A stretch of DNA of 60,137 nucleotides, from IMG/VR virus record IMGVR_UViG_3300010291_000001, positions 1 through 60,137 of that record. One strand, given 5' to 3'. This document shows, one piece after another, positions 1,817 through 49,722 of the stretch. The translations under genes and the position numbers were made by a program. The notes under the pieces were generated by a model, which was given only the letters and a program-made list of their open reading frames with translations, had not been told where the DNA came from and did not search any database. This DNA is from a virus. Within the stretch, counting starts at the first letter, position 1. Every line of letters begins with the position of its first letter.

Positions 1817-2244
1817 AGCTCTATAACCTCCGTCTCTGGTTTATGTACCCGCGTCAACTTAATCGCAAGTAGCTCCATGACCCTGTTCTTAATCTGCGCG
1901 TGCCTAATCGTAGTAGGCGGCTTAAGCGAACATATTATAATACACCCCTTCCTGTCCCGCACATTGTTGAACATCCGTACCCACTCGGGCACGTCCGCAA
2001 CGCCGCCACCGTCAAAGTTGTCAATGAACTTTATTCTCGCCAGCATAGCCAGCTGCTTCCCGTCCGTTCCTTCAACCTCATGGACGGATCGCCGCTTGTT
2101 TGCGTCGATATAATCATCAGCAAGTGCCTCTATGATCCGCTTGGCCAGCGTTGTCTTGCCGGTGTACGAGTCGCCGTATATGAACGCCCCGCCCCTGGCC
2201 TTTATCTTTTCAACGAGATTCTCTATCGTCGGAGTATCTTCCAT
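1813..2244 (-). CDS. P-loop ATPase, possible helicase loader
   Basis: This 143-residue protein has a Walker A motif GDSYTGKT at residues 24-31 and a weak Walker B-like stretch (KFIDNFD). The size and the neighbouring DnaB-like helicase suggest a small DnaC-like or AAA+ helicase-loading ATPase, but no family-specific motif proves it. The ATG at 2244 was chosen because a GAAGAAGG site sits just upstream. It overlaps the end of the nuclease gene by 35 bases, and the gene's own stop overlaps the start of the HNH remnant. Confidence 0.6.
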   Translation of the reverse strand: MEDTPTIENLVEKIKARGGAFIYGDSYTGKTTLAKRIIEALADDYIDANKRRSVHEVEGTDGKQLAMLARIKFIDNFDGGGVADVPEWVRMFNNVRDRKGCIIICSLKPPTTIRHAQIKNRVMELLAIKLTRVHKPETEVIEL

Positions 2245-3547
2245 CCAACACCTTCTTCCAATTGTAATTCCTGATAAGCCAATACAAATCCACAACAAAC
2301 TCACTCACCTGCCCGCGCAGAAACATCGAGTTGCGTATATGTTGCGCGACCCTACCCCAATCATTGAGAGACATACCCGAGCGCATGACAGCCTTGGCGG
2401 AGCTGGTGGACTCATTGTGCCGCCTTAGCCCCAGGTCGTTTGCCAGCGCATTGTACGATTTGACTATTTCCCGGGCCTCTTCGATTTTGTTGTTCGCTTT
2501 CTTGTTCTTCGTGGTGCTGCTCCCTGACTCGATCAGGCTTTTCAGGTCAATCTGCGGCAGCGCATCGAACATGGATAGCGTTGTTTTGTTCATTACTATC
2601 CCGGCCGCCCTCAGGTCATCAGTGGTCAACGCCCTGCCCTCGGCGTCTTCAATGACCGCCTTCAACAGGAGCAGTGTTTTCATCTGCCTTCTTGCCGACT
2701 TTAGCGCGCCGCTCCTTAAAAGCCCGTAAGCCCTGTTCGACACGTTGATATACTTCGGTATGTTACACTCCATCGCCAATTCGGGGTTGGGCTTGTCTAT
2801 GATGAAATCTTCGCTCCCGACGGCATCGAAATTCTTGTCCTGACACACCCTTACGTAGGGGCATACCCCCCACACGTTTTCACAGAAATTGAAGTTACAC
2901 GGGAAACTCCCACTTTTTATATAATGGGCGAGAAGCCCTATACTGTCCCTGAGGTACTCCTCGACGGCGTCAAGCCTCACTTTTGTTACATGGGTGGTTT
3001 CCATGCGTACCTTCGGGGCGGCCCACTGACACACCCTTGCCCTGTACTGCTCGAGCGTTTCACTGTTTTTCTGTTTCAGCAGTGGTTGCGGCGCAACAAT
3101 ATATCTGGTCGTCGCATAGTCAAGGTTCAGCAACCACGCGTATAACGGTATCTGTATAGACCGCAGAAACCGTCCCACGTCTATCCTGGACGTCAGCTTG
3201 AAGTCTGTTATTGTTTTTACGCCGTCAAACATGTCTATTTTGCCGGCTATTGTAATTCCGTTGAGCTCCCGCGACGCCTCTATCTCCGAGAAGCAGCCGC
3301 GCAGCTGCATAATGTCGGTTCTCTGCATGACGGCGTCAACGACCCCGAGTATGGCGGCTTTGACGCTATCATTGGGGTACACTATGTCCATCTGTTGCCC
3401 GGTTATCAGCGCCTGCATCTCGGAGTGAAACAGTATGCCCCTTGACATCGGCGCCGTTCTCGGCGGCTTTATTCCTTTTATTATGTTTAGTTCGAACCTT
3501 CTCGGGCATGACCTGAGCATTGATGTGGATGAGTATGTGAGTATCAT
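2210..3547 (-). CDS. PD-(D/E)XK nuclease with Fe-S type cysteines (Cas4/RecB-like)
   Basis: This 445-residue protein shows the Cas4/RecB nuclease layout. A CPRRF motif has Cys14 and a GxLFH-type His is at 41. The catalytic GKID (Asp105) and DFK (Asp115, Lys117) are followed by QxxxY (Gln132, Tyr136). Three further cysteines at 222, 229 and 235, with Cys217 close by, follow at the end of the domain. The split cysteine set is the pattern that holds a 4Fe-4S cluster in Cas4 and AddB. The C-terminal 200 residues are helical and unassigned. In a phage replication cluster it most likely resects DNA ends for recombination-dependent replication. There is no cas gene or CRISPR array beside it. Confidence 0.82.
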   Translation of the reverse strand: MILTYSSTSMLRSCPRRFELNIIKGIKPPRTAPMSRGILFHSEMQALITGQQMDIVYPNDSVKAAILGVVDAVMQRTDIMQLRGCFSEIEASRELNGITIAGKIDMFDGVKTITDFKLTSRIDVGRFLRSIQIPLYAWLLNLDYATTRYIVAPQPLLKQKNSETLEQYRARVCQWAAPKVRMETTHVTKVRLDAVEEYLRDSIGLLAHYIKSGSFPCNFNFCENVWGVCPYVRVCQDKNFDAVGSEDFIIDKPNPELAMECNIPKYINVSNRAYGLLRSGALKSARRQMKTLLLLKAVIEDAEGRALTTDDLRAAGIVMNKTTLSMFDALPQIDLKSLIESGSSTTKNKKANNKIEEAREIVKSYNALANDLGLRRHNESTSSAKAVMRSGMSLNDWGRVAQHIRNSMFLRGQVSEFVVDLYWLIRNYNWKKVLDGRYSDDRESR

Positions 3548-9639: not shown

Positions 9640-10458
9640 CTACTTCCGTATCAGCTTTTTGATTTTCGGGAGCACCCCGCCGATCGTCTTACTGGCTTTC
9701 GGAAGTATTGCGCCGAGCTTTTCTCCCGGCCCGCCGACGTACGGCGCCAGGGCCGGAACAAGCCCGGCCCCGGCAGCAAGAGCGCCCATTTTTATCCCGG
9801 CGTCCCTGTACGTCGCCATCGCCCTGTCGAGAGCTTCCTTGTCCTCTTTGGACGAGAGGTGCTTCTTGGCTTTCGCCGTCGCCAGCCCTTCAGAGATAAG
9901 CGGCGCAAGCGCCAGCGGCGCGGTAAGTATTGCGGCTATCCCCAGCGGCACCGCAATAGGCGACCGGGCCAGCAGTGCTCCGATGCCGGAAAGCGCAAGA
10001 CCCAACGGTATCGGGGATGCCACCTGCGGCAGAAGGGTCGCCAGTATATTTGTGTTGAGGTGCCCTATTTCGTGGGCGGCGATCGCGCCCGCGGCCGGCA
10101 CCGTATTAGACACAAAAGCCATGTTCAGTCCAGGGAAGGCGATTCCACCCCCACCGCCTATCGCCTGCCCCATAAACTCATACAGCGACGCACCATACAG
10201 CTCGCGCTCGTATTTTGCAATATCCTTGTCTTTGTGAATGCCGGCCAGCCGCTCCGCTTCTTTTCTGATGGTGGGACCGTGCATTTTACCGAGATGCCTG
10301 CTTAGTGCGTCCCTGGCCTTCGCAATGCTGCTGTCCTGGTCAAACACAATCAGCAGGGGTTTGTGTGTATCCCGGAGCGGAGCGGTCATGTTGTTGTATA
10401 TTTCGGCAATCTGCTTTTTCGCAGAATCGTGTATGCTGTCCGGTAGAACAAGTTTCAT
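9640..10458 (-). CDS. HExxH membrane metalloprotease-like protein
   Basis: The 272-residue protein has a zinc-protease helix HEIGH at 129-133. A hydrophobic span (about 147-188) ends in an SEGLA segment whose Glu190 could be the third zinc ligand, as in gluzincins. The N-terminal 80 residues are charged and helical; the last 60 are Gly/Ala-rich with a basic tail. The ATG at 10458 overlaps the stop of the SNF2 gene (ATGA) and has AAGGGG ahead. A membrane protease made late with a helicase is unusual. It could process virion or membrane proteins, or act during entry or release. Confidence 0.65.
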   Translation of the reverse strand: MKLVLPDSIHDSAKKQIAEIYNNMTAPLRDTHKPLLIVFDQDSSIAKARDALSRHLGKMHGPTIRKEAERLAGIHKDKDIAKYERELYGASLYEFMGQAIGGGGGIAFPGLNMAFVSNTVPAAGAIAAHEIGHLNTNILATLLPQVASPIPLGLALSGIGALLARSPIAVPLGIAAILTAPLALAPLISEGLATAKAKKHLSSKEDKEALDRAMATYRDAGIKMGALAAGAGLVPALAPYVGGPGEKLGAILPKASKTIGGVLPKIKKLIRK

Positions 10459-12596
10459 TTGTTTTCCCCTTCCAGCCTGACCAGCCGCCATTTATCGTCC
10501 GGCTGCTTCAGGAGAATAAACTCGTTTCCTATATCGCCCAGCGATTTCGCCTTTTTGCCGGTTATCGAAAACCTTATCCTGTCGGGCGTGCTGTATTTTA
10601 TATTGGCGACGCCCTGAAACACGGTTGATACCGTCCCCTTGCCGTAGCCGCCCGGTATGGTTCCCCTGAAACGGAAGTAACTGAGCGGGTGAGACGCCTG
10701 TCTTGCGACAAGCGTCGTTTTGTGTTGCTCGTCCGGCAGCCTGATGGTGGCCCATGAGTGTCCTGCCCGCGCCTTCTTGTCCCACATCCTTATGTCATAA
10801 TGTTTATGCCTGGCCCTGTGCCGCTGTATGACAAACGGCCACTTTTCGTTTTCGGTGCTCGTGATCTCGTGTATGCCTCTTGCCCTGTAGTCATGGCCGG
10901 ACCCGAGCTTTCTTATCGACGCCATCTGTTTTGCGAGCCGGCCGACGCCCCGTATAAACCCCAGCCCCCCGACCGCCCGGGCGGCTGCCCACGATGCCCC
11001 GCGCCCCAGGCCTCTTATACCGGACAGTATCCTACCCCTTCTCCTGATAATGGAGGGAAGCGTAAGTGCGCCCATTGTAACAGCCCCGCCCATGAGCGCA
11101 GCGCGCTGTCTCGGCGACATCGTCCATCGCGGGGTTTGTATGGCGTTCCAGAAATCTTTTACGGCTTTTTCCTTGCTTTCGGCCACGCGGTACACGTGTT
11201 GGTCTATGGCTCCGTCCCCGGTCTTGGGATCCGCTATATATTTATTGACCACCACCCTTCTCTGACCGGCAGGAAACGCCCGCAGGCCCCCGCGCCGCAC
11301 CCCGCGCCCGATTATCTGTTTTATTTTCATTGGATTATAATGGCCGTCCAGCAGGGATATCATGGTAGTGTCCGGCAGGTTAAGCCCCTCAGCCCCGGCC
11401 CCCGTTATCAACAGGATACGCTTGTTTCCCTTCCTGAAGTTGTCTACCGCCTGCTCTTTGAGATTTTGAGGCATCCCACCGGTAAACTTGGCAAATGGAA
11501 TGTTAAGCTTCGAAAGGGCTGTGCCCAGCGTCCTGGTCCCGTGATTCTTGAAGCTGGAATACATAAGAACACGGTTACGCGGGTCTGTGGCTATATGGTC
11601 GAGTGCGTCTTTTACGGCCCTTACGGCCTTTGAGCTGGCAAACGGCATACTGCGCTTTGAGGCGGTCAGGTATCCCGGATCATTGCTCACCTGTCTTGCC
11701 GCCATGGCCCTGTTGACGATGCGCTCAGCCAGGTTTATATCGAGTTTCTTGTCTTTGAGCAGGGATATCTCTCTTTTCGACAAGTCCTTCCTAAGCGCCC
11801 TCCTGTAGGCTGTACGCTGTACCTGGTTCATCGGCACTATAACGAATTGCTCTTTTACGGAGGGCATGTCGGGGGCTTTGGCTGTTGGCATCATAAACAC
11901 GTCGCCGAACATCCTCGCCATGGTTCTTTGATTATAATAGCCTTTCAGCTCGCCGGACCCCGGCTTGCCGGTTACTATCGCCCTGATATGCTCCATTACC
12001 CCGCGCAGGCGCCGGTTTTCGAACTTGCGGCTGAATTCCCCGATTTTCATTGGCCTTGGAGAAATTACGTTGTGGATGTTTAGTGCTTCATAAACATTGT
12101 TTTGCGCCGGTGTTGCGGTAAGGCCTATCATGTGCTTTGACCGGCCCCGCAGCCTGCGGAGTACGGCGTGATTTACAGTCGTTTTGTCCTTGGCCCGATG
12201 AATTTCATCTGCTATGACAGTGTCGTAGCCGGTAAGCCGGGGCGCGTTTTTGCGGGCCAGGTCATAGGATATTACCGAAAAGTCTCTGTTCCTGAATCTG
12301 TCTATATCTCTCGATGAGTTGATGACGCCCACCGACGCATTTGTGTACTTTCTGACATTATCGGCGAAATTGCGTTTCAGGGCGGCCGGAACGACAACCA
12401 GCGCGTTGCGCGACCTGCCGGTCTCTCTGAGCCTCAGTGCCGCAGCTATGCTGGCAAGGGTCTTGCCCGTGCCGGTGTCGGCCGCGTTTACGCCGCTTCC
12501 TTGGCGCTCAATGAATTTGACGAAATTCGCCTGGTCGCCGGTGAGGCGGACGCCTTTTTTGAGGCCTGGAATATCGGCAAAGTCGTTAGTCTTCAT
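10455..12596 (-). CDS. SNF2-type helicase fused to LigD-like 3'-phosphoesterase domain
   Basis: Residues 20-490 form an SF2/SNF2 translocase: motif I DTGTGKT (40-46), II DEIH (129-132), III LTATP (158-162) and a C-terminal helicase half. Residues about 495-565 are basic, Gly/Ala-rich and hydrophobic. Residues about 585-705 match the 3'-phosphoesterase module of bacterial LigD. His593, His599, Asp601, Arg603, His636 and Tyr640 have the spacing of the LigD metal-site residues (motifs HYDIR and SHPLSYF, then GTIPGGYGKGTV). That module removes 3'-phosphates and ribonucleotides from DNA ends. No ligase domain is present. A -10 element lies five bases before the ATG, so the mRNA is probably leaderless. 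It is co-transcribed with the protease gene. Confidence 0.85.
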   Translation of the reverse strand: MKTNDFADIPGLKKGVRLTGDQANFVKFIERQGSGVNAADTGTGKTLASIAAALRLRETGRSRNALVVVPAALKRNFADNVRKYTNASVGVINSSRDIDRFRNRDFSVISYDLARKNAPRLTGYDTVIADEIHRAKDKTTVNHAVLRRLRGRSKHMIGLTATPAQNNVYEALNIHNVISPRPMKIGEFSRKFENRRLRGVMEHIRAIVTGKPGSGELKGYYNQRTMARMFGDVFMMPTAKAPDMPSVKEQFVIVPMNQVQRTAYRRALRKDLSKREISLLKDKKLDINLAERIVNRAMAARQVSNDPGYLTASKRSMPFASSKAVRAVKDALDHIATDPRNRVLMYSSFKNHGTRTLGTALSKLNIPFAKFTGGMPQNLKEQAVDNFRKGNKRILLITGAGAEGLNLPDTTMISLLDGHYNPMKIKQIIGRGVRRGGLRAFPAGQRRVVVNKYIADPKTGDGAIDQHVYRVAESKEKAVKDFWNAIQTPRWTMSPRQRAALMGGAVTMGALTLPSIIRRRGRILSGIRGLGRGASWAAARAVGGLGFIRGVGRLAKQMASIRKLGSGHDYRARGIHEITSTENEKWPFVIQRHRARHKHYDIRMWDKKARAGHSWATIRLPDEQHKTTLVARQASHPLSYFRFRGTIPGGYGKGTVSTVFQGVANIKYSTPDRIRFSITGKKAKSLGDIGNEFILLKQPDDKWRLVRLEGENK

Positions 12597-15418: not shown

Positions 15419-16957
15419 GTGGGCAGACGGCTAAAGCGGTCCGAATGGATCTGTGAGTCGGTCTGTGCGCCGGAAGGCCACAAGCTTTCCATAGACCTTA
15501 TGCCGTGGTGGCGTCAGATTTACGACAGGTCGTTCAAGAACTGGCACCACTCGGTTCTTCTTTCCGGCAGGCAATGCGGCAAATCAACGACGGCGATAGC
15601 CATGATGATAACAGACATCATGCGGCCCAACACCACCGTCATATACGCGATGCCTACGGATCCCCACGTCGCGGAACTGTCGAAAACACGCTTTTCCCCG
15701 ATGTGGGCCTCGATTGTTCGCGGCAAGCCGGACATAATAGTGGACAATGTTCACGAAAAGTCCTTCTCCAACGGCTCCAACATTTTATTCAAATACCTGT
15801 ACGGCGGCAGGAGCGGCCTGCGAGCCAGGGGCACCACGGCCAACGCGCTGTACCTGGACGAGATACAGAACATAGTCGTCGACCAGATATCCATCATACA
15901 GGAAACGCTGGCGTTTCGGCTGTATGAGGGCCAACAGAAATGGCAGACGTTCGCCGGGACGCACATGTCCCGGCTGTCCGCCCCGAACGTTTACTGGCAG
16001 ATGTCCACGAAGCGGGAGTGGTTTATCCATTGTTGTTGCGGTCACTGGAATTTTCCCGACGAGTCTCTTATCGGAGACAGGTTTCTCGTCTGTTCGTCAT
16101 GCGGCGGCAGGCTGGACCCCCGCGACGGCCAGTGGGTCCGCACCGGGCCGGATGACGCCACATGGGAGGGATTCAGAATACCCCAGATACTGTCCCCGTT
16201 CGTTCCGTTCGATGCGGGTGTGGCGGACTCGATCAATGATAAAAGAAAGAAGTACTCCAGGCAAAGATTTCTGAATGAAGTCATGTGTATGCCGTATGAC
16301 GCCGGCGTACTATGGATAACGCCGAACGAGCTCAGAAGCATCATGACGCCGGAAGTAAAATACTATAACATAATAGACAATATTGAAGCCGGCTCATATT
16401 TCATGGGCATAGACTGGGGGTCCGCCGAGTCGTCCGGAAACTCCAATACCGTCGTGACGATCGTGATGGTGCGCGCCGGCCTGGTAGAGGTCAGGCATAT
16501 AAGGAAGTTTGACGCGGGCGAAGGCGATTTTGATTATCAGCTTGAGCAGATCCGCCAGCTCGCCGATAAGTTCGACATAAACGTTATTTGCGCCGACTGG
16601 GGGTTCGGGGCATTTCAAAACCAGAGGCTCCGCAAGATGTGCAAGGCGCAGCTGATAGAAGTCATGTACACGTCGCAGTCGGCTTTTGCGTCTTACAACC
16701 GCAAGGACGGCAGGTGGCACGTTGACAGGACTCAGGCCCTTGATGATCTGAAAATGGATCTGGTCGATCACAAGAATATCCTGTTCCCTCCGCAGGAGTA
16801 CGTTCAGCACATTGAGAAAGAGTTCTATTCGCTGGAGCGTGTCGAGGATATCGACAAAGGCAAGGTCTCATACGAGCATGACCAGCAAAACCCGGACGAT
16901 GCGGTTCATTCCCTGTTTTACGCCGTCTTCGCAGCCAAGAGATATGTTCACCTGTGA
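15419..16957 (+). CDS. terL: terminase large subunit
   Basis: The 512-residue packaging motor starts at GTG behind AGGAGGGG. The ATPase domain has Walker A GRQCGKST (50-57) and Walker B LYLDE (Asp147, Glu148). A four-cysteine knuckle (CCCG...CSSCGG, about 200-232) is inserted between the domains. The RNase H-like nuclease begins at GIDWGS (about 325) and continues with ICADWGFG and acidic residues near DDAVHS at the C-terminus. It pumps and cuts concatemeric phage DNA into proheads. The next 247 bases hold only RNA signals. Confidence 0.92.
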   Translation: MGRRLKRSEWICESVCAPEGHKLSIDLMPWWRQIYDRSFKNWHHSVLLSGRQCGKSTTAIAMMITDIMRPNTTVIYAMPTDPHVAELSKTRFSPMWASIVRGKPDIIVDNVHEKSFSNGSNILFKYLYGGRSGLRARGTTANALYLDEIQNIVVDQISIIQETLAFRLYEGQQKWQTFAGTHMSRLSAPNVYWQMSTKREWFIHCCCGHWNFPDESLIGDRFLVCSSCGGRLDPRDGQWVRTGPDDATWEGFRIPQILSPFVPFDAGVADSINDKRKKYSRQRFLNEVMCMPYDAGVLWITPNELRSIMTPEVKYYNIIDNIEAGSYFMGIDWGSAESSGNSNTVVTIVMVRAGLVEVRHIRKFDAGEGDFDYQLEQIRQLADKFDINVICADWGFGAFQNQRLRKMCKAQLIEVMYTSQSAFASYNRKDGRWHVDRTQALDDLKMDLVDHKNILFPPQEYVQHIEKEFYSLERVEDIDKGKVSYEHDQQNPDDAVHSLFYAVFAAKRYVHL

Positions 16958-17204: not shown

Positions 17205-17567
17205 TGGTGGAGGTGGCGGGGATCGAACCCGCGTCCGGAACTATTTCGCGCTTGACCTTCTTCATGCTTAGTCGGTTTGTTTTGGCCGGTAACCAACAAA
17301 CCGGCGAGCCGTCTTTCCGGTACCTGTCATTCAGTCTTTCCTGAAAGCCATTTGGTCTTTCCCAAAGGCCGGCAGTTCTTTCCTGCTGTCACCCGCTGTT
17401 GTGTCCCGGCTTCCGCTACTGCGGGCCCTACGGAGTCGGGGGCTGCAATTAAGCAGCCTTGCGTATTGCCGTGGCAGGTTATGCGCAGTCGACTTTTTAC
17501 GAGGCCTGTCGACCAACCTCGACATGCTTCTTCAAACGCTCGATACCCGTCGATTCCATTCACCCCC
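17205..17567 (-). ncRNA. ssrA: transfer-messenger RNA (tmRNA)
   Basis: The 363-nt RNA has both tmRNA ends. The 5' GGGGGTGAATGGAATCGACG pairs its first 7 bases with the 3' CACCTCC, followed by A and an encoded CCA. The T-arm reads GCGGGTTCGATCCCCGC and the preceding GACTAAGCATG block is typical. A first pseudoknot (CGAGG/CCTCG and the TAAAAAGTCGAC element) precedes the tag frame. The most likely tag frame is GCC ACG GCA ATA CGC AAG GCT GCT TAA, giving (A)ATAIRKAA. tmRNA with SmpB rescues stalled ribosomes. No smpB gene is seen here, so host SmpB would be used. Confidence 0.93.
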
Positions 17568-19331: not shown

Positions 19332-20108
19332 CTAAACCTGAACGTTCAGGAGCTGCTGATATATTCCCTTGGCTTTCCTGGTAGTCTTTGCCACTGCGAG
19401 GTTTAGCTCGCCTTTTTTGATGTCGACAACGTCGACCAGGTCGTGTTCGGGAATTGAACGAAGCCGGGCCGCCACCACAATTTTTTCAAAATCGGTCAAC
19501 CGCTTCATGATATCGTCGCGGCTGATCCCGGGCCCGCCGAACGGATCATACGCTATATTGTGCGTGTTCTCGGTGGCGGGGATCTGGTGCAGCGGCACCA
19601 GCTGCATACCCATGCTCGCGATGAGCGTTTCGGCCAGGGCGGTGGAGCATTTCAGTGTCTCGGCGAGCTCTTCCGCGGTCGGCTGCCTGTGCAGTTTGTC
19701 CGTAAGAATTTTGAACTGCCTTGCCGCCGAACCCTGTATCCTTTTATTTACGGGTCGCGGCTCGTTGTTCTGCAGAAAGGACAATATGGCCTGTCTGATC
19801 CACCAGGTGGCGAAGGAGTTGAACCGGACCCCCATGTCCGGGTCGTACTGTTCGGCGGCTTTCATCAGGCCGACGTTGCCCTCTGCCACAATATCGTCGA
19901 AGTCGGGGTGGTTGTCGGCTATTCTTCTGGCTATCGTTATGACTAGCCTGAGGTTGCCTTCGACGATTTTATGGAGTATCGCAACCTCCCCGGTCACACG
20001 GAACTCGCGCGACAGCTCCCTGGTCTGCTTGTCTTTCAGGGACTTTATGTGCCTGAGAGACCTGTAATATTCCCTGCCTATCAGCTCCCTACCGCGGAAA
20101 TGTTTCAT
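19332..20108 (-). CDS. sigma-70 family sigma factor
   Basis: The 258-residue protein has clear sigma regions 2.1-2.4 at about residues 48-120: GNLRLVITIARRIADNHPD, then FDDIVAEGNVGL, then RFNSFATWWIRQAI. A region 3-like HRQPTAEELAETL follows. The C-terminal third stands where region 4 belongs but has no clear -35-reading helix. That matches the late promoters, which show a -10 element and no -35. It should direct host RNA polymerase to GTTATAATTTTATA-type sites. A DNA-binding winged-helix gene overlaps its start by 20 bases. Confidence 0.87.
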   Translation of the reverse strand: MKHFRGRELIGREYYRSLRHIKSLKDKQTRELSREFRVTGEVAILHKIVEGNLRLVITIARRIADNHPDFDDIVAEGNVGLMKAAEQYDPDMGVRFNSFATWWIRQAILSFLQNNEPRPVNKRIQGSAARQFKILTDKLHRQPTAEELAETLKCSTALAETLIASMGMQLVPLHQIPATENTHNIAYDPFGGPGISRDDIMKRLTDFEKIVVAARLRSIPEHDLVDVVDIKKGELNLAVAKTTRKAKGIYQQLLNVQV

Positions 20109-27818: not shown

Positions 27819-28700
27819 ATGGATAATGTTGGGGAATTGTTTGTAAGTGCAATTGCAAAAGAAGGCTCTGCCGCGATTGAGAAATTCAATCAGGGTATGC
27901 GCACGTGGGTCGAGACTGAGCTTATTGACAAGTCCATCCTGCGCAAGGTCCTGATGGTTTCGCATGAGCGTCCGGTGCCGGTGCCTGGCGGTCTCGGCTA
28001 CCCGTTCGGGAAGCTGGCCCCCAATGTCGACGGCGTTATGGTAACTGGTGAGTTTCCCAGCATAAAGCCGAGTATTGTCCGCCAGAGCGTCGTGCCTGCG
28101 GTTCTGATCAAGGTGCTCAACGGTCATGTCGCGGACATGGACGAGCTGCGCGCGGTTACGGACATGGGTGTCTGGATCCGCGGCAAGGTGACCGACGAGA
28201 TCGGTTTCCGGGAAAACCAGCTTCTAATGACCGCTCTTGTTGCGGCTCACGGCTCTCCGCAGTCCATCACCACGGCCAGCGGCAGCTTTGAGCCCTCTGC
28301 CGTACCGATAATCAAGAATCTGATTTCGACGAATGACCTGAAGGCTGCAACGATAATCATCAAAGAGAGTGATTATAACAACATCTCCAGCTGGGACAAT
28401 GTCAAGGCGTCGGATCAGAAGCTTGACAAGATATGGGACAAGGGCGAGCTGGCGGTAACCGAGTTTGCGGGATTGAACATAATCCCTCTCCAGGACCGCG
28501 TTTTCACGAAGGCCGGCTCTACGGCCGACGGTTACGTGCTGGCCCAGAAGGAATTCCTGGGCTTCCTGCTCGAGGGGACCCCGCTTTCGGTGGTTGCGGA
28601 AAAAGAGAAGAACCTGACCTACCTGTTCCACGCCGGCCAGAGCCTTGGCCTCGCGATCATGAACACCAACGCAGTGCGTGGCTTCACCATGACAAAGTGA
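27819..28700 (+). CDS. major capsid protein
   Basis: The 293-residue protein comes after protease, scaffold and decoration genes, has a strong AGGAGG site and is followed by an intrinsic terminator, all typical of the major capsid gene. The sequence fits an HK97-type subunit: helical N-arm, a long spine helix (about 115-135), central beta segments and a C-terminal P-loop-like end. No conserved motif is short enough to prove it by eye. Confidence 0.75.
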   Translation: MDNVGELFVSAIAKEGSAAIEKFNQGMRTWVETELIDKSILRKVLMVSHERPVPVPGGLGYPFGKLAPNVDGVMVTGEFPSIKPSIVRQSVVPAVLIKVLNGHVADMDELRAVTDMGVWIRGKVTDEIGFRENQLLMTALVAAHGSPQSITTASGSFEPSAVPIIKNLISTNDLKAATIIIKESDYNNISSWDNVKASDQKLDKIWDKGELAVTEFAGLNIIPLQDRVFTKAGSTADGYVLAQKEFLGFLLEGTPLSVVAEKEKNLTYLFHAGQSLGLAIMNTNAVRGFTMTK

Positions 28701-35767: not shown

Positions 35768-37246
35768 TTACACCTTGAAGCCTATTTTTCTTTTCTCTTG
35801 TTTCACGGCGCCGGACTGGGCGCTGCAGGCCCACAGCCTGGCCCACTCGCGCATATGGCGTATCTGGTCCTCGCGGGCCCGCGATATTCTTATCACGTAC
35901 TTTTCCGCCTCCTGGAGCGTGTCGAACGCCCTGGAAAGCCTCGCCAGATTGCGTATCTCGGCGCCGGTCATGTCGCGGATGACCTTTTTGTCCGGCTTGT
36001 GTGTGACCTTGAAGTAGTCGAACCATAGCTCGGCTATCCTCATCGCCTCCTCGTCCGACGGCATGTCGATGAAGAAGATCGAGTCCCACCTTTCAGCCCG
36101 TATGAATTCCGGCGGGAGGGCGTTGATGTTATTGGAGGTGGCAACCACGTAGCTGCCGTTCTTCCTGTCGCTCAGCCACTTCAAGAATTGGGAGAAGGTT
36201 CTGCTCCCCGTCCCCCCGTCGGTCATATTGCTGCTCGCCATTCCGCCGACGCTCTTCTCGATCTCGTCGATGAACACGACGCAGTCTCCGACCGCATCAA
36301 GGGTTTCTATCGCGGCTTTCATTCTCGCTTCGGATTCGCCCACGAACCGGTTGAACACCCGATCCATGTAAAATGTTATCGTGGGTATCCCGAGCTCTTT
36401 GCCTAACGCCCGACTGAACGCGGACTTGCCGGTTCCGGGTATGCCTACCAGCAGAACTCCGCGGCTTTCGTCCAGCCTCGCTGTTTTTCTGACGAAGGTT
36501 TTCAGGGCCTCGAGCCCTACAATGTAGTCGAACGAGTCGACTTCCGTATATTCGTGCAGCTGCAGGACTTCCGAGTTGTTGAGCTTCGATCTCTTCATCT
36601 CGTGAAGATCTTCCGGGGTCTGGCATACCAATTCTGCTATTAGGAGTTCCTTGCGGTTCAGGCCCACGGAGGCTCCCGGGTGACCGAGGACGATACTATT
36701 TGTTTTGTTCTTGTTGAGCGACGCCAGCACGTCGTCCATCAACAAGGCGGTTTCATACTTGTCCGGAACCGGAATCTTTACCGATAGCGCGGAGCTGATT
36801 ATGTCCTGGGGCACGTTTTCACTGTAGCTGGCTTCCAGTATTATAGTAACCCCGGGCACCCTTTCGCCGTATATGGCCCGGATGTATGACAGGGCCGTCA
36901 GCACCGCCGGGTTAGGCGTTGTTGTTCCTGGTATGGATAGACACGAAAACGTCGGTATCACGAATATGCCCGTTACCGGCTGCTCAAACGCCTGGTCATA
37001 TATCATCCTAAACGCCATGGTCGGCTCGGTAATGCTGGTGCCGTCCGGCGCCTTTAATTCCTCTCCTGCGCTCTTGCCTGTCATGCACTTGATACCGTTC
37101 GTCGGCGACAGGGCGTAAATGTCCCTGTTAAGCACTACGTTATTTCTTTTTGCCTCGAACTCGAGATGTTTTACGGAGGCGTATATCTCAGGAGCGCGCG
37201 CAAGTATCACGTCTGCGCCGCGCATAATCAGGTCCAGTAGTTTCAT
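35768..37246 (-). CDS. AAA+ ATPase (FtsH/spastin-like module)
   Basis: The C-terminal half of this 492-residue protein is a classic AAA module: Walker A GIPGTGKS (268-275), FVGESEARMK, Walker B VVFIDE (323-328), sensor-1 region VVATSNN and an arginine-finger region PPEFIRAERWD. The N-terminal 235 residues form a divergent domain that may bind substrate. There is no protease domain. It probably remodels a protein or nucleoprotein complex. It ends a 10-kb leftward operon. Confidence 0.8.
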   Translation of the reverse strand: MKLLDLIMRGADVILARAPEIYASVKHLEFEAKRNNVVLNRDIYALSPTNGIKCMTGKSAGEELKAPDGTSITEPTMAFRMIYDQAFEQPVTGIFVIPTFSCLSIPGTTTPNPAVLTALSYIRAIYGERVPGVTIILEASYSENVPQDIISSALSVKIPVPDKYETALLMDDVLASLNKNKTNSIVLGHPGASVGLNRKELLIAELVCQTPEDLHEMKRSKLNNSEVLQLHEYTEVDSFDYIVGLEALKTFVRKTARLDESRGVLLVGIPGTGKSAFSRALGKELGIPTITFYMDRVFNRFVGESEARMKAAIETLDAVGDCVVFIDEIEKSVGGMASSNMTDGGTGSRTFSQFLKWLSDRKNGSYVVATSNNINALPPEFIRAERWDSIFFIDMPSDEEAMRIAELWFDYFKVTHKPDKKVIRDMTGAEIRNLARLSRAFDTLQEAEKYVIRISRAREDQIRHMREWARLWACSAQSGAVKQEKRKIGFKV

Positions 37247-39636: not shown

Positions 39637-39996
39637 CTATAGGACTTCGCCGTATGTCTTTGCGACGATGTCCCCCACAATCGCCGACGACTCTGAAGTC
39701 ACCAATCTTTGCAGGTTCTCGGTGCGGTACACGGTATACCGCACCAGGCGGGCTCCCGCCTTTTCCATGTCCTTTTCAGTCCATTCGGCACCCCTTGGGG
39801 GGGTGTCGAATTCGATGGCGTAGATCGTTTTCGCTTCCGCCGCTAGGTGTAGCGGCAGATTGCCGATAACGTGCTTATTTTTCACGCTTTCGGCATCAGC
39901 GTGCGCCAACACCGGCGCCCCCCCAAATTGGGGGTAATGCGCTTTGATCCACTTTACCGCACCTTCGTGACGCGACACAATGACATGACCTTGCAT
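39637..39996 (-). CDS. Csx16-like protein, possible ring nuclease
   Basis: The 119-residue protein matches the Csx16 (VVA1548) pattern along its length. It starts with IVSRHEGAVKWIKAH, has a central aspartate-containing linker, then HVIGNLPL and HLAAEAK, and ends in TPPRGAEW, MEKAGARL and YTVYR. Csx16 proteins accompany type III CRISPR systems, and members have been reported to degrade cyclic oligoadenylate messengers. There is no cas gene nearby, so here it probably counters host type III signalling. A GAGGAGAG site precedes the ATG. Family membership is by pattern, the activity by inference. Confidence 0.75.
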   Translation of the reverse strand: MQGHVIVSRHEGAVKWIKAHYPQFGGAPVLAHADAESVKNKHVIGNLPLHLAAEAKTIYAIEFDTPPRGAEWTEKDMEKAGARLVRYTVYRTENLQRLVTSESSAIVGDIVAKTYGEVL

Positions 39997-40059
39997 CTCT
40001 CTCTCCTCTCACGTATCATGGTGCCACCACCACGGAACCGCTCCATGGTAAAGGCACCT

Positions 40060-47167: not shown

Positions 47168-47371
47168 TTACACGCGAATCAGCTTTCTAAAACGCAACCA
47201 GTGTATGTTTTGCAAACTCGATGTTTCATGCCTGTCAAGGTTATTAATGAACGGGGTTATTACCCTTATCCCCCCGCACATGGTCAGCGAAAGACATCTG
47301 CGGCTTTGAATTGCGCACTTTCTGCTTTCGCATACGGGGCAACTACACAGCTCTTTGCTTTCTATATACAT
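47168..47371 (-). CDS. array gene: CxC-type small protein
   Basis: The 67-residue protein starts ATG TAT inside the TAG of the previous gene. It has the LCSCPVC knuckle shared with two upstream neighbours, then CLSLTMCGG. Likely a small zinc protein. It is the last member of the tandem array. Confidence 0.5.
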   Translation of the reverse strand: MYIESKELCSCPVCESRKCAIQSRRCLSLTMCGGIRVITPFINNLDRHETSSLQNIHWLRFRKLIRV

Positions 47372-47499
47372 AACCACCCCCTCTGTATGCGCGCGACCGG
47401 CCGGCCATACATGGAACGCATGAAGTCGCGTAGCCTGACGCCGGCCACCATCTTATGGTATGTGCCACACTGACAGAGCCCTTTCCCTGCTACATACAC
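47362..47499 (-). CDS. array gene: CxC-type small protein
   Basis: A 45-residue peptide starts with GTG TAT inside the previous stop. It carries KGLCQCGT and ends GWLCI before TAG. Layout matches both neighbours (LC at residues 8-9 and a WLC end), so these are duplicated micro-genes. Confidence 0.5.
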   Translation of the reverse strand: MYVAGKGLCQCGTYHKMVAGVRLRDFMRSMYGRPVARIQRGWLCI

Positions 47500-47645
47500 A
47501 ACCATTCTCCCTGGTAAAAGAAGACGTCGGACAGGTAAAATATCACCAGATGGGCAATGTGGCCGCCCTGCATTCTGGCGTAAGCGCCCTTTTCCTGCGG
47601 GCGGCACACGGCACAGACGCAAAGGTTTTTATAGCTCACATACAT
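47490..47645 (-). CDS. array gene: CxC-type small protein
   Basis: A 51-residue peptide starts ATG TAT within the previous gene's end. It has KNLCVCAVC near the N-terminus and ends EWLCM before TAG. It is closely patterned on its neighbours. Possible zinc-binding peptide; function unknown. Confidence 0.5.
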   Translation of the reverse strand: MYVSYKNLCVCAVCRPQEKGAYARMQGGHIAHLVIFYLSDVFFYQGEWLCM

Positions 47646-47857
47646 AACCGCCTCCCCTCATGTGCCGCAAGCCATGTGGCGTTTTTGACATTTGAGGTAA
47701 AGCACGACAAGGTTCTAAAGTAGGGCACACTCATGTCCAGGTATGGAAAGCAAGCGTCGACATACTCGAACCGAAGATAGAATATTGTATCTTGTGGTAA
47801 CCGGTCCGAAGGTAAAGTGTTCGGTCGGTCACAGAGACGCCTATGGCTTATGTACAC
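47636..47857 (-). CDS. array gene: small unknown protein
   Basis: The 73-residue protein starts GTG TAC overlapping the stop of the membrane protein gene and ends RRLCM. It has the HRRLC start related to the three CxC genes that follow, but lacks the second knuckle. Confidence 0.45.
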   Translation of the reverse strand: MYISHRRLCDRPNTLPSDRLPQDTIFYLRFEYVDACFPYLDMSVPYFRTLSCFTSNVKNATWLAAHEGRRLCM

Positions 47858-48066
47858 TTTTCATTCCCTCCCCACACAAAAAACCCGTATACGGAAAGAC
47901 CCAGAAACGCCCCGAACTGAACCGCGGCAGCGTATTCCCCATTTGATATGTTATGTGTCAGCCACATTGTGTTGCTTATCATCCACAACACAAAGCCGAA
48001 CCTGTATTTACGGACATTGAAGGCTGCTCCTATCAACGAGATAACACACGTTGTCCAGGCAAACAT
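47848..48066 (-). CDS. small PnuC-like membrane protein
   Basis: The 72-residue protein has two or three hydrophobic helices: FAWTTCVISLIGAAF, then FGFVLWMISNTMWL and AVQFGAFLGLSVYGFFVW. The KYRFGFVLWMISN and FLGLSVYGFFVW stretches resemble part of PnuC-type transporter repeats. The ATG at 48066 has GGAG ahead. It is too short for a full transporter, so it may be a membrane effector or oligomer. It sits inside the array. Confidence 0.62.
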   Translation of the reverse strand: MFAWTTCVISLIGAAFNVRKYRFGFVLWMISNTMWLTHNISNGEYAAAVQFGAFLGLSVYGFFVWGGNEKCT

Positions 48067-48482
48067 TTGGGCTCCGTTTCCCACACGCCTAGTGCCACTA
48101 ACGCCCATAAGCTTGGGCGGCGCACGACCGTCTCCTTCATGCGCCGTCCGCGTATGGTCATTGTGGAGCGCCGTACCCCAGAGCGCACCCGGTCGCCGGG
48201 GCCTGTTGCGTACTTGACGTACTCTGACCCGCGACTATCAACAGAAATATAAACCCAAACCGCCCGGCTCCCTGCGCAGGCCGTTGACAGAAGGCTCGGG
48301 CAATTTGCTATTGCAACGCATAACTTCACGTTACCGGTTCTCGGTTTCCCTCTCATTTCAGTCGCCGGTTTTGTTGTCGAGCTGCAATCCAGAAACCACA
48401 CCACGCTGTCGGGTGTTGTGTACATTGTCCAATCTCCCGCCTTGGGGACTATACATAGAACCCACACGGATACATTAGGCAT
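48033..48482 (-). CDS. array gene: unknown, start ambiguous
   Basis: The 149-residue frame could start at ATG 48482, or at ATG 48425 with GGGAG ahead. The boundary ATG TAT at 48456 is in another, 32-codon frame. The boundary motif is read through as LCIV in the long frame. The protein has beta-strand-like blocks (VKLCVAIANC, AVWVYISVDS) and a basic tail. Its end overlaps the membrane protein gene by 34 bases. Confidence 0.4.
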   Translation of the reverse strand: MPNVSVWVLCIVPKAGDWTMYTTPDSVVWFLDCSSTTKPATEMRGKPRTGNVKLCVAIANCPSLLSTACAGSRAVWVYISVDSRGSEYVKYATGPGDRVRSGVRRSTMTIRGRRMKETVVRRPSLWALVALGVWETEPKCLPGQRVLSR

Positions 48483-48499
48483 GTTTTCGCCTGTTGATG

Positions 48500-48701
48500 T
48501 TATTGTGTTACTGTCGACGCACGCCTCAAGGCGAAGCGCCGCACAACGCCAATAATCTTTTGGCTTGTGTTGCACGAGGCACATGCGCCCACGTGGCCGC
48601 CAACAATCAGGCGCATTGCTGATGCCATATTGTCGGGTACGCAGGAGCAATCCGCCACGATATGGGCAAAGCCTGTGCTGGCGTTCCGGTGGATTATACA
48701 T
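48500..48701 (-). pseudogene. array cassette with frame conflict
   Basis: The boundary ATG TAT (48701) overlaps the previous stop as in other cassettes, but its frame gives a Cys/Arg/Trp-rich sequence. The +1 frame, open for 66 codons to TAA at 48500, is more protein-like (FAHIVADCSC, AMRLIVGGHVGACASC) but has no ATG, GTG or TTG near the boundary. It resembles the equally long +1 frame at 51019-51219. Either a frameshifted relic or an unusual start. Confidence 0.35.
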
Positions 48702-49029
48702 AAAGCAGGTGTTCTCCCAACAAGTCAAGACACAGGTGGCAGTCGTAAGTCCCGTGGCGACACGGTATAACCGAGAACACCCATCTCCCCCACGGGTACA
48801 CGGTAAACCTAAACTTACGCCGTCTACGGAAGGTTGTCAGGTACAGCCTTATACAAAGTATTAGCGGGCGCTCGGCGTGAGCGGGACTGTTGGACGGTAT
48901 TGCCAGGACGGGGTGGTCAAGGTCCAGCTTAAACCGCGGGGACCGCGGGGTTCCGTAAACAAAACGATCCGACGCGTACGTTGACGGGGCCACATGACCC
49001 CAAAGCCCCTGTTTGGGCGGATTATACAT
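48694..49029 (-). CDS. array gene: unknown small protein
   Basis: The 111-residue protein starts ATG TAT AAT with AAGGAGG perfectly placed, one of the best ribosome sites in the array. It ends LLYV with its TAA inside the next cassette's start. Arg/Phe/Leu-rich strands fill its centre. Function unknown. Confidence 0.5.
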   Translation of the reverse strand: MYNPPKQGLWGHVAPSTYASDRFVYGTPRSPRFKLDLDHPVLAIPSNSPAHAERPLILCIRLYLTTFRRRRKFRFTVYPWGRWVFSVIPCRHGTYDCHLCLDLLGEHLLYV

Positions 49030-49063
49030 AACAACCTCCTTCGACAACCGACCATTCGACCTG

Positions 49064-49225
49064 TCATTCTTTGGACGGCTGGGGGCGCCTGGCGTTTGCC
49101 CGTATGAACAGCTTAATAGCGCCATCAGAGGCCCAAAAGACCGACCGTGCAATCATACGTTGGCATATATCCAGACCATCAAAATTCAACTCCTCGTTGG
49201 GGCTGCGGTATGACGGCTTATACAT
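49064..49225 (-). CDS. array gene: unknown small protein
   Basis: The 53-residue protein starts ATG TAT AAG inside the previous stop. It contains GAIKLFIRANARRPQ, which resembles GVKIRAWADARKPR in the interrupted cassette at 49715, so the two share ancestry. Confidence 0.48.
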   Translation of the reverse strand: MYKPSYRSPNEELNFDGLDICQRMIARSVFWASDGAIKLFIRANARRPQPSKE

Positions 49226-49451
49226 ATACACTATCTCCCAAATAGCGCGTGATGCCCGCGAGGTCGTGCACGGGGGTTTTGGACCAGCCGCGCAGCCAGC
49301 CCACGCCTGATAGCCCGAACACCTGGGTTTCTATGATTATATACACCCTTATCGCGCGGTTGCGTCCGATCCCCCCGGTACGACTCATGATACTATTCAG
49401 CTCATCGGGCCTGCAGTTGACATTGAAGGGCGCGAGCGACGGACTATACAT
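49218..49451 (-). CDS. array gene: unknown small protein
   Basis: The 77-residue protein starts ATG TAT AGT inside the previous gene's stop and ends SVYV with its TAA inside the next start. The core AIRVYIIIETQVFG is a beta-strand block like those in sister cassettes. Function unknown. Confidence 0.5.
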   Translation of the reverse strand: MYSPSLAPFNVNCRPDELNSIMSRTGGIGRNRAIRVYIIIETQVFGLSGVGWLRGWSKTPVHDLAGITRYLGDSVYV

Positions 49452-49722
49452 AAAGCCCCCTTAGGTGTTCTTTTGCGCGGGATCCATACAGGCGAAAATT
49501 CTTAGCGTTGCCTTTAAAGTAGTTGCCTCTAAAGTAAAGGAGAACCTCGCATGTGACGACGTGGCAGCGACGGCTCGGCTCCAGCGCATGACATAGCTCC
49601 TGGGCCGGCCCGACCCCCTCTACCCAGTCCATCCGCGACCCCCCAGGGCCTCCAGTATATGCGGTTAACATTGTGCCCCAGTTATATATTTCCCGCTGGA
49701 ACAGCGCAGATAGATTATACAT
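49444..49722 (-). CDS. array gene: unknown small protein
   Basis: The 92-residue protein starts ATG TAT AAT with GGAGACC ahead and ends GLYV, its TAG sharing TATGTATAG with the next start. A CHVVTCEVLLYFRGN strand block lies in the second half. Function unknown. Confidence 0.5.
   Translation of the reverse strand: MYNLSALFQREIYNWGTMLTAYTGGPGGSRMDWVEGVGPAQELCHALEPSRRCHVVTCEVLLYFRGNYFKGNAKNFRLYGSRAKEHLRGLYV

Follow-up and report, generated by a model that had tools for sequence, protein, structure and literature searches.

A short-form Csx16-like protein of an uncultured tailed phage, a candidate anti-type III CRISPR ring nuclease

The window analysed here is the whole of a 60,137-bp IMG/VR virus record (IMGVR_UViG_3300010291_000001). 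Among its genes is one for a small protein related to Csx16 (Table 1). The first-pass annotation had placed a Csx16-like protein at 39637-39996 and had described it by the motifs VSRHxGAxxW, GNLPLHLAAE and RGAEW. An open reading frame lies at exactly these positions on the reverse strand and starts with ATG; the motifs are all present, the first as VSRHEGAVKW at residues 7-16 of the encoded protein. The gene is one of a series of small leftward genes without assigned function, and its GC3 is similar to that of the adjacent genes. PHROGs contains no family for the protein.

Table 1. Features of the Csx16-like gene and of the virus contig (positions in the window)
Feature	Position	Strand	Evidence and remarks
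csx16-like gene, short form, 119 aa	39637..39996	-	PF09652 over cut-off; own cellular-Csx16 profile
AGGAG ribosome-binding site, 6 nt 5' of ATG	40003..40007	-	sequence read directly
SRHEGAVKW motif, residues 8-16; conserved R9, H10, G12, A13, W16	39949..39975	-	alignments and residue check
GNLPLHLAAE motif, residues 45-54; the 4-residue helix deletion characteristic of the short form comes directly after it	39835..39864	-	alignments and models
RGAEW motif, residues 68-72; conserved R68, G69	39781..39795	-	alignment
C-terminal extension, residues 90-119, beyond the family profile, low model confidence	39640..39729	-	profile ends at residue 89; pLDDT about 57-64
Terminase large subunit	15419..16957	+	phrog_675, E=2.6e-56; tailed phage
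Major head protein	27819..28700	+	phrog_2522, E=8.2e-8
Sigma-70 region 2 protein	19332..20108	-	PF04542, 66.8 bits
tmRNA, full-length	17205..17567	-	Rfam RF00023, 125.9 bits (gathering 47)

The phage setting proposed at first pass is borne out by the terminase and head protein genes and by a DnaB-like helicase gene on the same contig. A tmRNA gene, missed by ARAGORN, separates the terminase gene from the one after it; its tag frame, read by hand, may encode ATAIRKAA followed by TAA. The sigma-70 region 2 protein and the tmRNA suggest a bacterial host. The tmRNA resembles cultured-phage sequence at its 3' end only, and the relatives of the terminase are distant, the best being about 26% identical. 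Scans of IMG/VR with the window protein, its terminase and the Csx16 of plasmid P-10H_0 as queries returned no relatives, so the phage lineage looks isolated; within the searches made, it is undescribed.

Neither a Cas10 palm domain nor a Csx1 HEPN domain was found in the 60-kb record, as expected for a viral copy and in agreement with the earlier remark that no cas genes surround the locus. The Cas4-like PADLOC score of a PD-(D/E)XK nuclease at 2210-3547 is weak, and Pfam assigns this protein to PDDEXK_1. Several other features of the contig were recorded. Near the csx16-like gene, 35768-37246 (-) encodes an AAA ATPase resembling PADLOC IetA (48.5 bits), and a single frame at 10455-12050 (-) joins a helicase C-terminal domain to a following LigD_N 3'-phosphoesterase domain, an unusual pairing. 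Positions 47168-49722 (-) hold about eight short frames in a row, most of which start with MY(x) (MYNPP, MYKPS, MYSPS, MYVSY, MYIS, MYIES) and several of whose stop codons overlap the next start; the arrangement suggests that small genes, or a start module, have been repeated. At the contig edge (1-122), a 15-base tandem repeat of the GGCGCCGACCAGATC type is probably a truncated pentapeptide-repeat gene.

Profile searches place the window protein in the Csx16 family. It scores 46.6 bits (E=3.9e-12, residues 6-89) against PF09652 (Cas_VVA1548, Csx16), whose curated cut-off is 25 bits, and the PADLOC Csx16 models agree with 46.6 bits. A profile of our own, built from 22 Csx16s of genomes or cas-bearing plasmids with viral copies excluded, gives the frame 56.9 bits (E=1e-16); the second-best frame in the window reaches 6.6 bits, and the maximum over 50 windows simulated with a third-order Markov model is 10.6 bits. 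The match is real and well beyond chance, and family membership is nearly certain. The NCBI equivalog-type model TIGR02620 gives the window protein only 23.1 bits, under its curated cut-off of 46.35, so we do not assign the protein to TIGR02620. Two viral proteins annotated as Csx16, from Drs3 (45.3 bits) and PhiF3 (45.5 bits), fall narrowly under this cut-off; plasmid P-10H_0 (59.0 bits) and phage L008 (49.8 bits) pass it, and two cellular Csx16s and one cas-locus plasmid Csx16 score 94-114 bits. The profile search proposed at first pass thus gives a score over the cut-off for Pfam and not for TIGR02620: the window protein is a divergent Csx16 member by Pfam and not a TIGR02620 equivalog. The matches found by sequence search of the PDB, all of them short and all to ankyrin/DARPin and designed repeat proteins, were rejected as a chance likeness of 'LPLHLAAE' to ankyrin repeats.

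In an alignment of 35 Csx16 sequences, the window protein does not depart from the canonical residue at any of the 11 scored positions (R9, H10, G12, A13, W16, H32, G45, L47, P48, R68 and G69), and it shares the order of core elements with canonical Csx16 (PF09652/TIGR02620, cA4-specific). Unlike canonical Csx16, it has a four-residue deletion in the helix after GxLP, a one-residue deletion before K39 and a C-terminal extension; its family score is also lower, and its gene lies apart from cas genes. The match, described earlier as full-length, accordingly extends over a core of 90 residues, which is interrupted by the four-residue deletion and followed by about 30 residues outside the profile.

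An AlphaFold2 model of the window protein has a mean pLDDT of 83; most of the core exceeds 90, and the C-terminal 30 residues have values of 57-64. Its strands and helices follow the same order as in a canonical Csx16 modelled identically, and the helix after GxLP spans residues 49-52, as against 49-57 in the canonical model. Since the deletion adjoins the conserved GxLP loop, the activity of the window protein could be altered, to judge from the models. Foldseek searches of the PDB and of viral models returned no significant match for the window model, whereas the canonical Csx16 model, run as a control, found the ring nuclease Sso2081 first (E=0.009, probability 0.95) and Csm6, Sis0455, Cam1 and Cap4 lower down, the CARF/SAVED matches having E values from 0.009 to 0.3. 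Structure prediction, as suggested at first pass, therefore reproduces the element order of Csx16 and supports a CARF-like Rossmann core, a five-stranded sheet with helices, for the family but does not establish it for the window copy. The accompanying statement that AcrIII-1 has a different fold is doubtful, because PMC12409355 gives, as the DALI match for Csx16, a viral homologue of Crn2/AcrIII-1 (2J6B).

The four residues missing directly after LPLHLAAE define a short form of Csx16. The same gap is found in six other aligned viral or plasmid elements: plasmids P-10H_0 (from an archaeon), pSC2 (Paenibacillus), pMESIL02 (Allomeiothermus), where it occurs in three domains of two proteins, and pDEIPR02 (Deinococcus), and the IMG/VR contigs L034 and L038. 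By eye, it is also present in L035, which is 54% identical to the pSC2 domain. The short form was seen in none of the 23 aligned Csx16s from cellular genomes, in neither of the two from cas-bearing (Cas10-positive) Allochromatium plasmids and in none of the virus copies from Drs3, PhiF3 and L008. The cellular sample came from one pattern scan and family searches of about 1,100 genomes in two phyla, some of them searched twice, so the restriction to mobile elements holds for this sample. Cas10 was absent from the short-form elements searched (the window, P-10H_0, pSC2, pMESIL02, L034, L035 and L038; pDEIPR02 lay outside the search); it was present on both long-form plasmids and in six of the eight Csx16-bearing cellular genomes examined.

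In a phylogeny that did not use gaps as characters, and for which the program warned that some long branches meet, the short forms make up one side of a single branch (support 92/95) that recurs in 94% of bootstrap trees. The short/long state changes once on the tree, compared with 8.1 times when labels are shuffled, and P-10H_0 is the row nearest to the window protein. The data neither establish a single clade of all viral and plasmid Csx16s nor reject it clearly (p-AU 0.061); grouping is seen for the short form alone. The gap that its members share probably arose once and does not represent independent replicates. Some other short forms lack conserved residues, including those of SRH, all of which the window copy keeps; catalysis may therefore not extend to every short-form protein.

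Stand-alone Csx16s without Cas10 are also seen in other viruses and plasmids. The stand-alone arrangement of the window recurs in PhiF3, Drs3 and L008, and the cultured viruses in the collection searched that have an annotated Csx16, PhiF3 and Drs3, infect methanogens. Methanobacterium virus Drs3 (AXN53384) and PhiF3 (QGZ14607) resemble the window in being tailed viruses that have the gene but lack Cas10, and the Drs3 protein is 41% identical to the window protein. However, these are archaeal viruses, and their Csx16s are of the long form, without the deletion, with TIGR02620 scores of about 45 bits as against 23. The Csx16 of P-10H_0 (BDI55091) is of the short form like that of the window, is 38% identical to it and likewise lies on an element without Cas10, but that element is a plasmid of an uncultured archaeon and its Csx16 has no C-terminal extension.

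Larger and tandem proteins occur as well. pMESIL02 encodes a 261-residue protein (L036:2303-3088) with two tandem Csx16 domains, the second having HQ in place of the RH pair, and a 671-residue protein with a Csx16 domain at its N-terminus. Proteins at L006:5722-6270, L034:5710-6276 and L035:3716-4651 carry about 90 residues N-terminal to the Csx16 domain which, on visual inspection, look like a second, degenerate Csx16 half lacking SRHxGA; from their sequences, these proteins may possibly be fused dimers with one site. On L038, a pentapeptide-like repeat gene lies immediately downstream of csx16. The short-form gene of pDEIPR02 (L041:4992-5276) has two genes for single-stranded DNA-binding proteins within a few kilobases, a setting like that of the leading regions of conjugative plasmids, in which anti-defence genes collect.

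A representative Csx16 has been tested experimentally: according to Hoikkala et al. (PMC12409355), it degrades cA4 efficiently but not cA3 or cA6, conserved residues cluster at the modelled AMP site, and Csx16 occurs in 2 of 28,114 phage genomes. The degradation of cyclic oligoadenylates ascribed to the family at first pass is therefore right for the family, although narrower than stated. The same paper cites AcrIII-1 as an example of viral ring nucleases acting as anti-CRISPRs, an established class. As a relative of Csx16, which destroys an alarm molecule of type III CRISPR systems, the window protein probably silences that alarm for the virus, and its gene probably encodes a Csx16-family ring nuclease with which an uncultured tailed phage of bacteria counters type III CRISPR immunity. 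By analogy with the tested protein, we infer cA4 cleavage and counter-defence in vivo. During infection, phage RNA would be recognised by the Cas10 complex of the host, whose type III system presumably signals through cA4, and cyclic tetra-adenylate (cA4) would be made. In the phage Csx16, most likely a dimer, the conserved SRHxGA, GxLP and RG motifs would form the face to which cA4 binds, and the bound cA4 would be cut into linear products. With cA4 removed, effectors that it activates, among them Csx1 or Can2, would stay off.

Three other functions are each unlikely for the window protein. The least unlikely is that of a cA4 sponge, binding the cyclic nucleotide without cutting it fast and still acting against defence. 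Csx15, of the CARF superfamily, sets a precedent (PMC13148439), since it binds cA4 well, cleaves it very slowly and nevertheless neutralises immunity when overexpressed; the altered helix after GxLP in the short form and the loss of SRH residues in some members would also fit. Against this, the window copy keeps every conserved canonical position and the tested Csx16 degrades cA4 efficiently (PMC12409355), and in the view of the Csx15 authors a sponge could be of no avail against type III systems, whose signal is abundant (PMC13148439). Next comes a change of substrate in the short form, which would then target another signal, for example cA3 or a CBASS-like cyclic nucleotide. The position of the short form on the tree apart from cellular Csx16 (92/95) and the absence of Cas10 from its elements speak for it, as does Crn4, another phage-borne ring nuclease family, which acts on several signals (PMC12830947); but the conserved positions are unchanged and no sequence feature indicates a different ligand.

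Also improbable, and ranked behind the change of substrate, is that the protein derives from Csx16 but serves phages or plasmids in some unrelated way, for instance as a ligand-sensing regulator or a fusion module. Such a role would suit pMESIL02, with its 671-residue protein and separate tandem protein, and the neighbours of the window gene have no assignable function; yet the window copy is small, single-domain and fully conserved, and PhiF3, Drs3 and L008 carry equally stand-alone copies. A captured or decaying host gene without function for the phage is very improbable, even given the low TIGR02620 score (23.1 bits) and a virus contig with no assigned host, because the frame is open behind a strong ribosome-binding site with GC3 matching its neighbours, keeps all conserved residues at about 40% identity and belongs to a distinct mobile-element branch instead of having been copied from a host recently.

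In its proposed role of destroying cA4, the window protein would parallel AcrIII-1/Crn2, a separate protein family for which viral cA4 destruction is experimentally proven and which PMC12409355 counts in 36 phage genomes as against two for Csx16. Csx15 is likewise small, binds cA4 and falls in the CARF superfamily, but it differs in family and is a slow nuclease; it was not observed in phage genomes (PMC13148439). Because Csx16 has already been reported in two phage genomes (PMC12409355), which are probably Drs3 and PhiF3, viral Csx16 as such is not new. The short mobile-element form, its presence in a tailed phage with bacterial features and the tandem versions seem to be new: in the portions available, the open-licence ring-nuclease papers located describe none of them.

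A broader proposal is made more tentatively. The short form may be a dedicated mobile-element branch of Csx16, present in bacterial phages and in bacterial and archaeal plasmids, which forms a family of anti-type III CRISPR (or wider anti-cyclic-nucleotide) enzymes unlike cellular Csx16 in structure and perhaps in substrate, with tandem fused-dimer versions on some elements. The presence of a Csx16 in a phage with bacterial features, within a shortened branch seen so far on mobile elements alone, suggests that viruses and plasmids keep a Csx16 lineage of their own and do not repeatedly borrow the gene from hosts. The branch provides a set of candidate anti-type III CRISPR proteins that can be tested directly, and the window protein, with its intact site, stands beside members that have lost conserved residues, a pairing useful for separating nuclease from sponge action.
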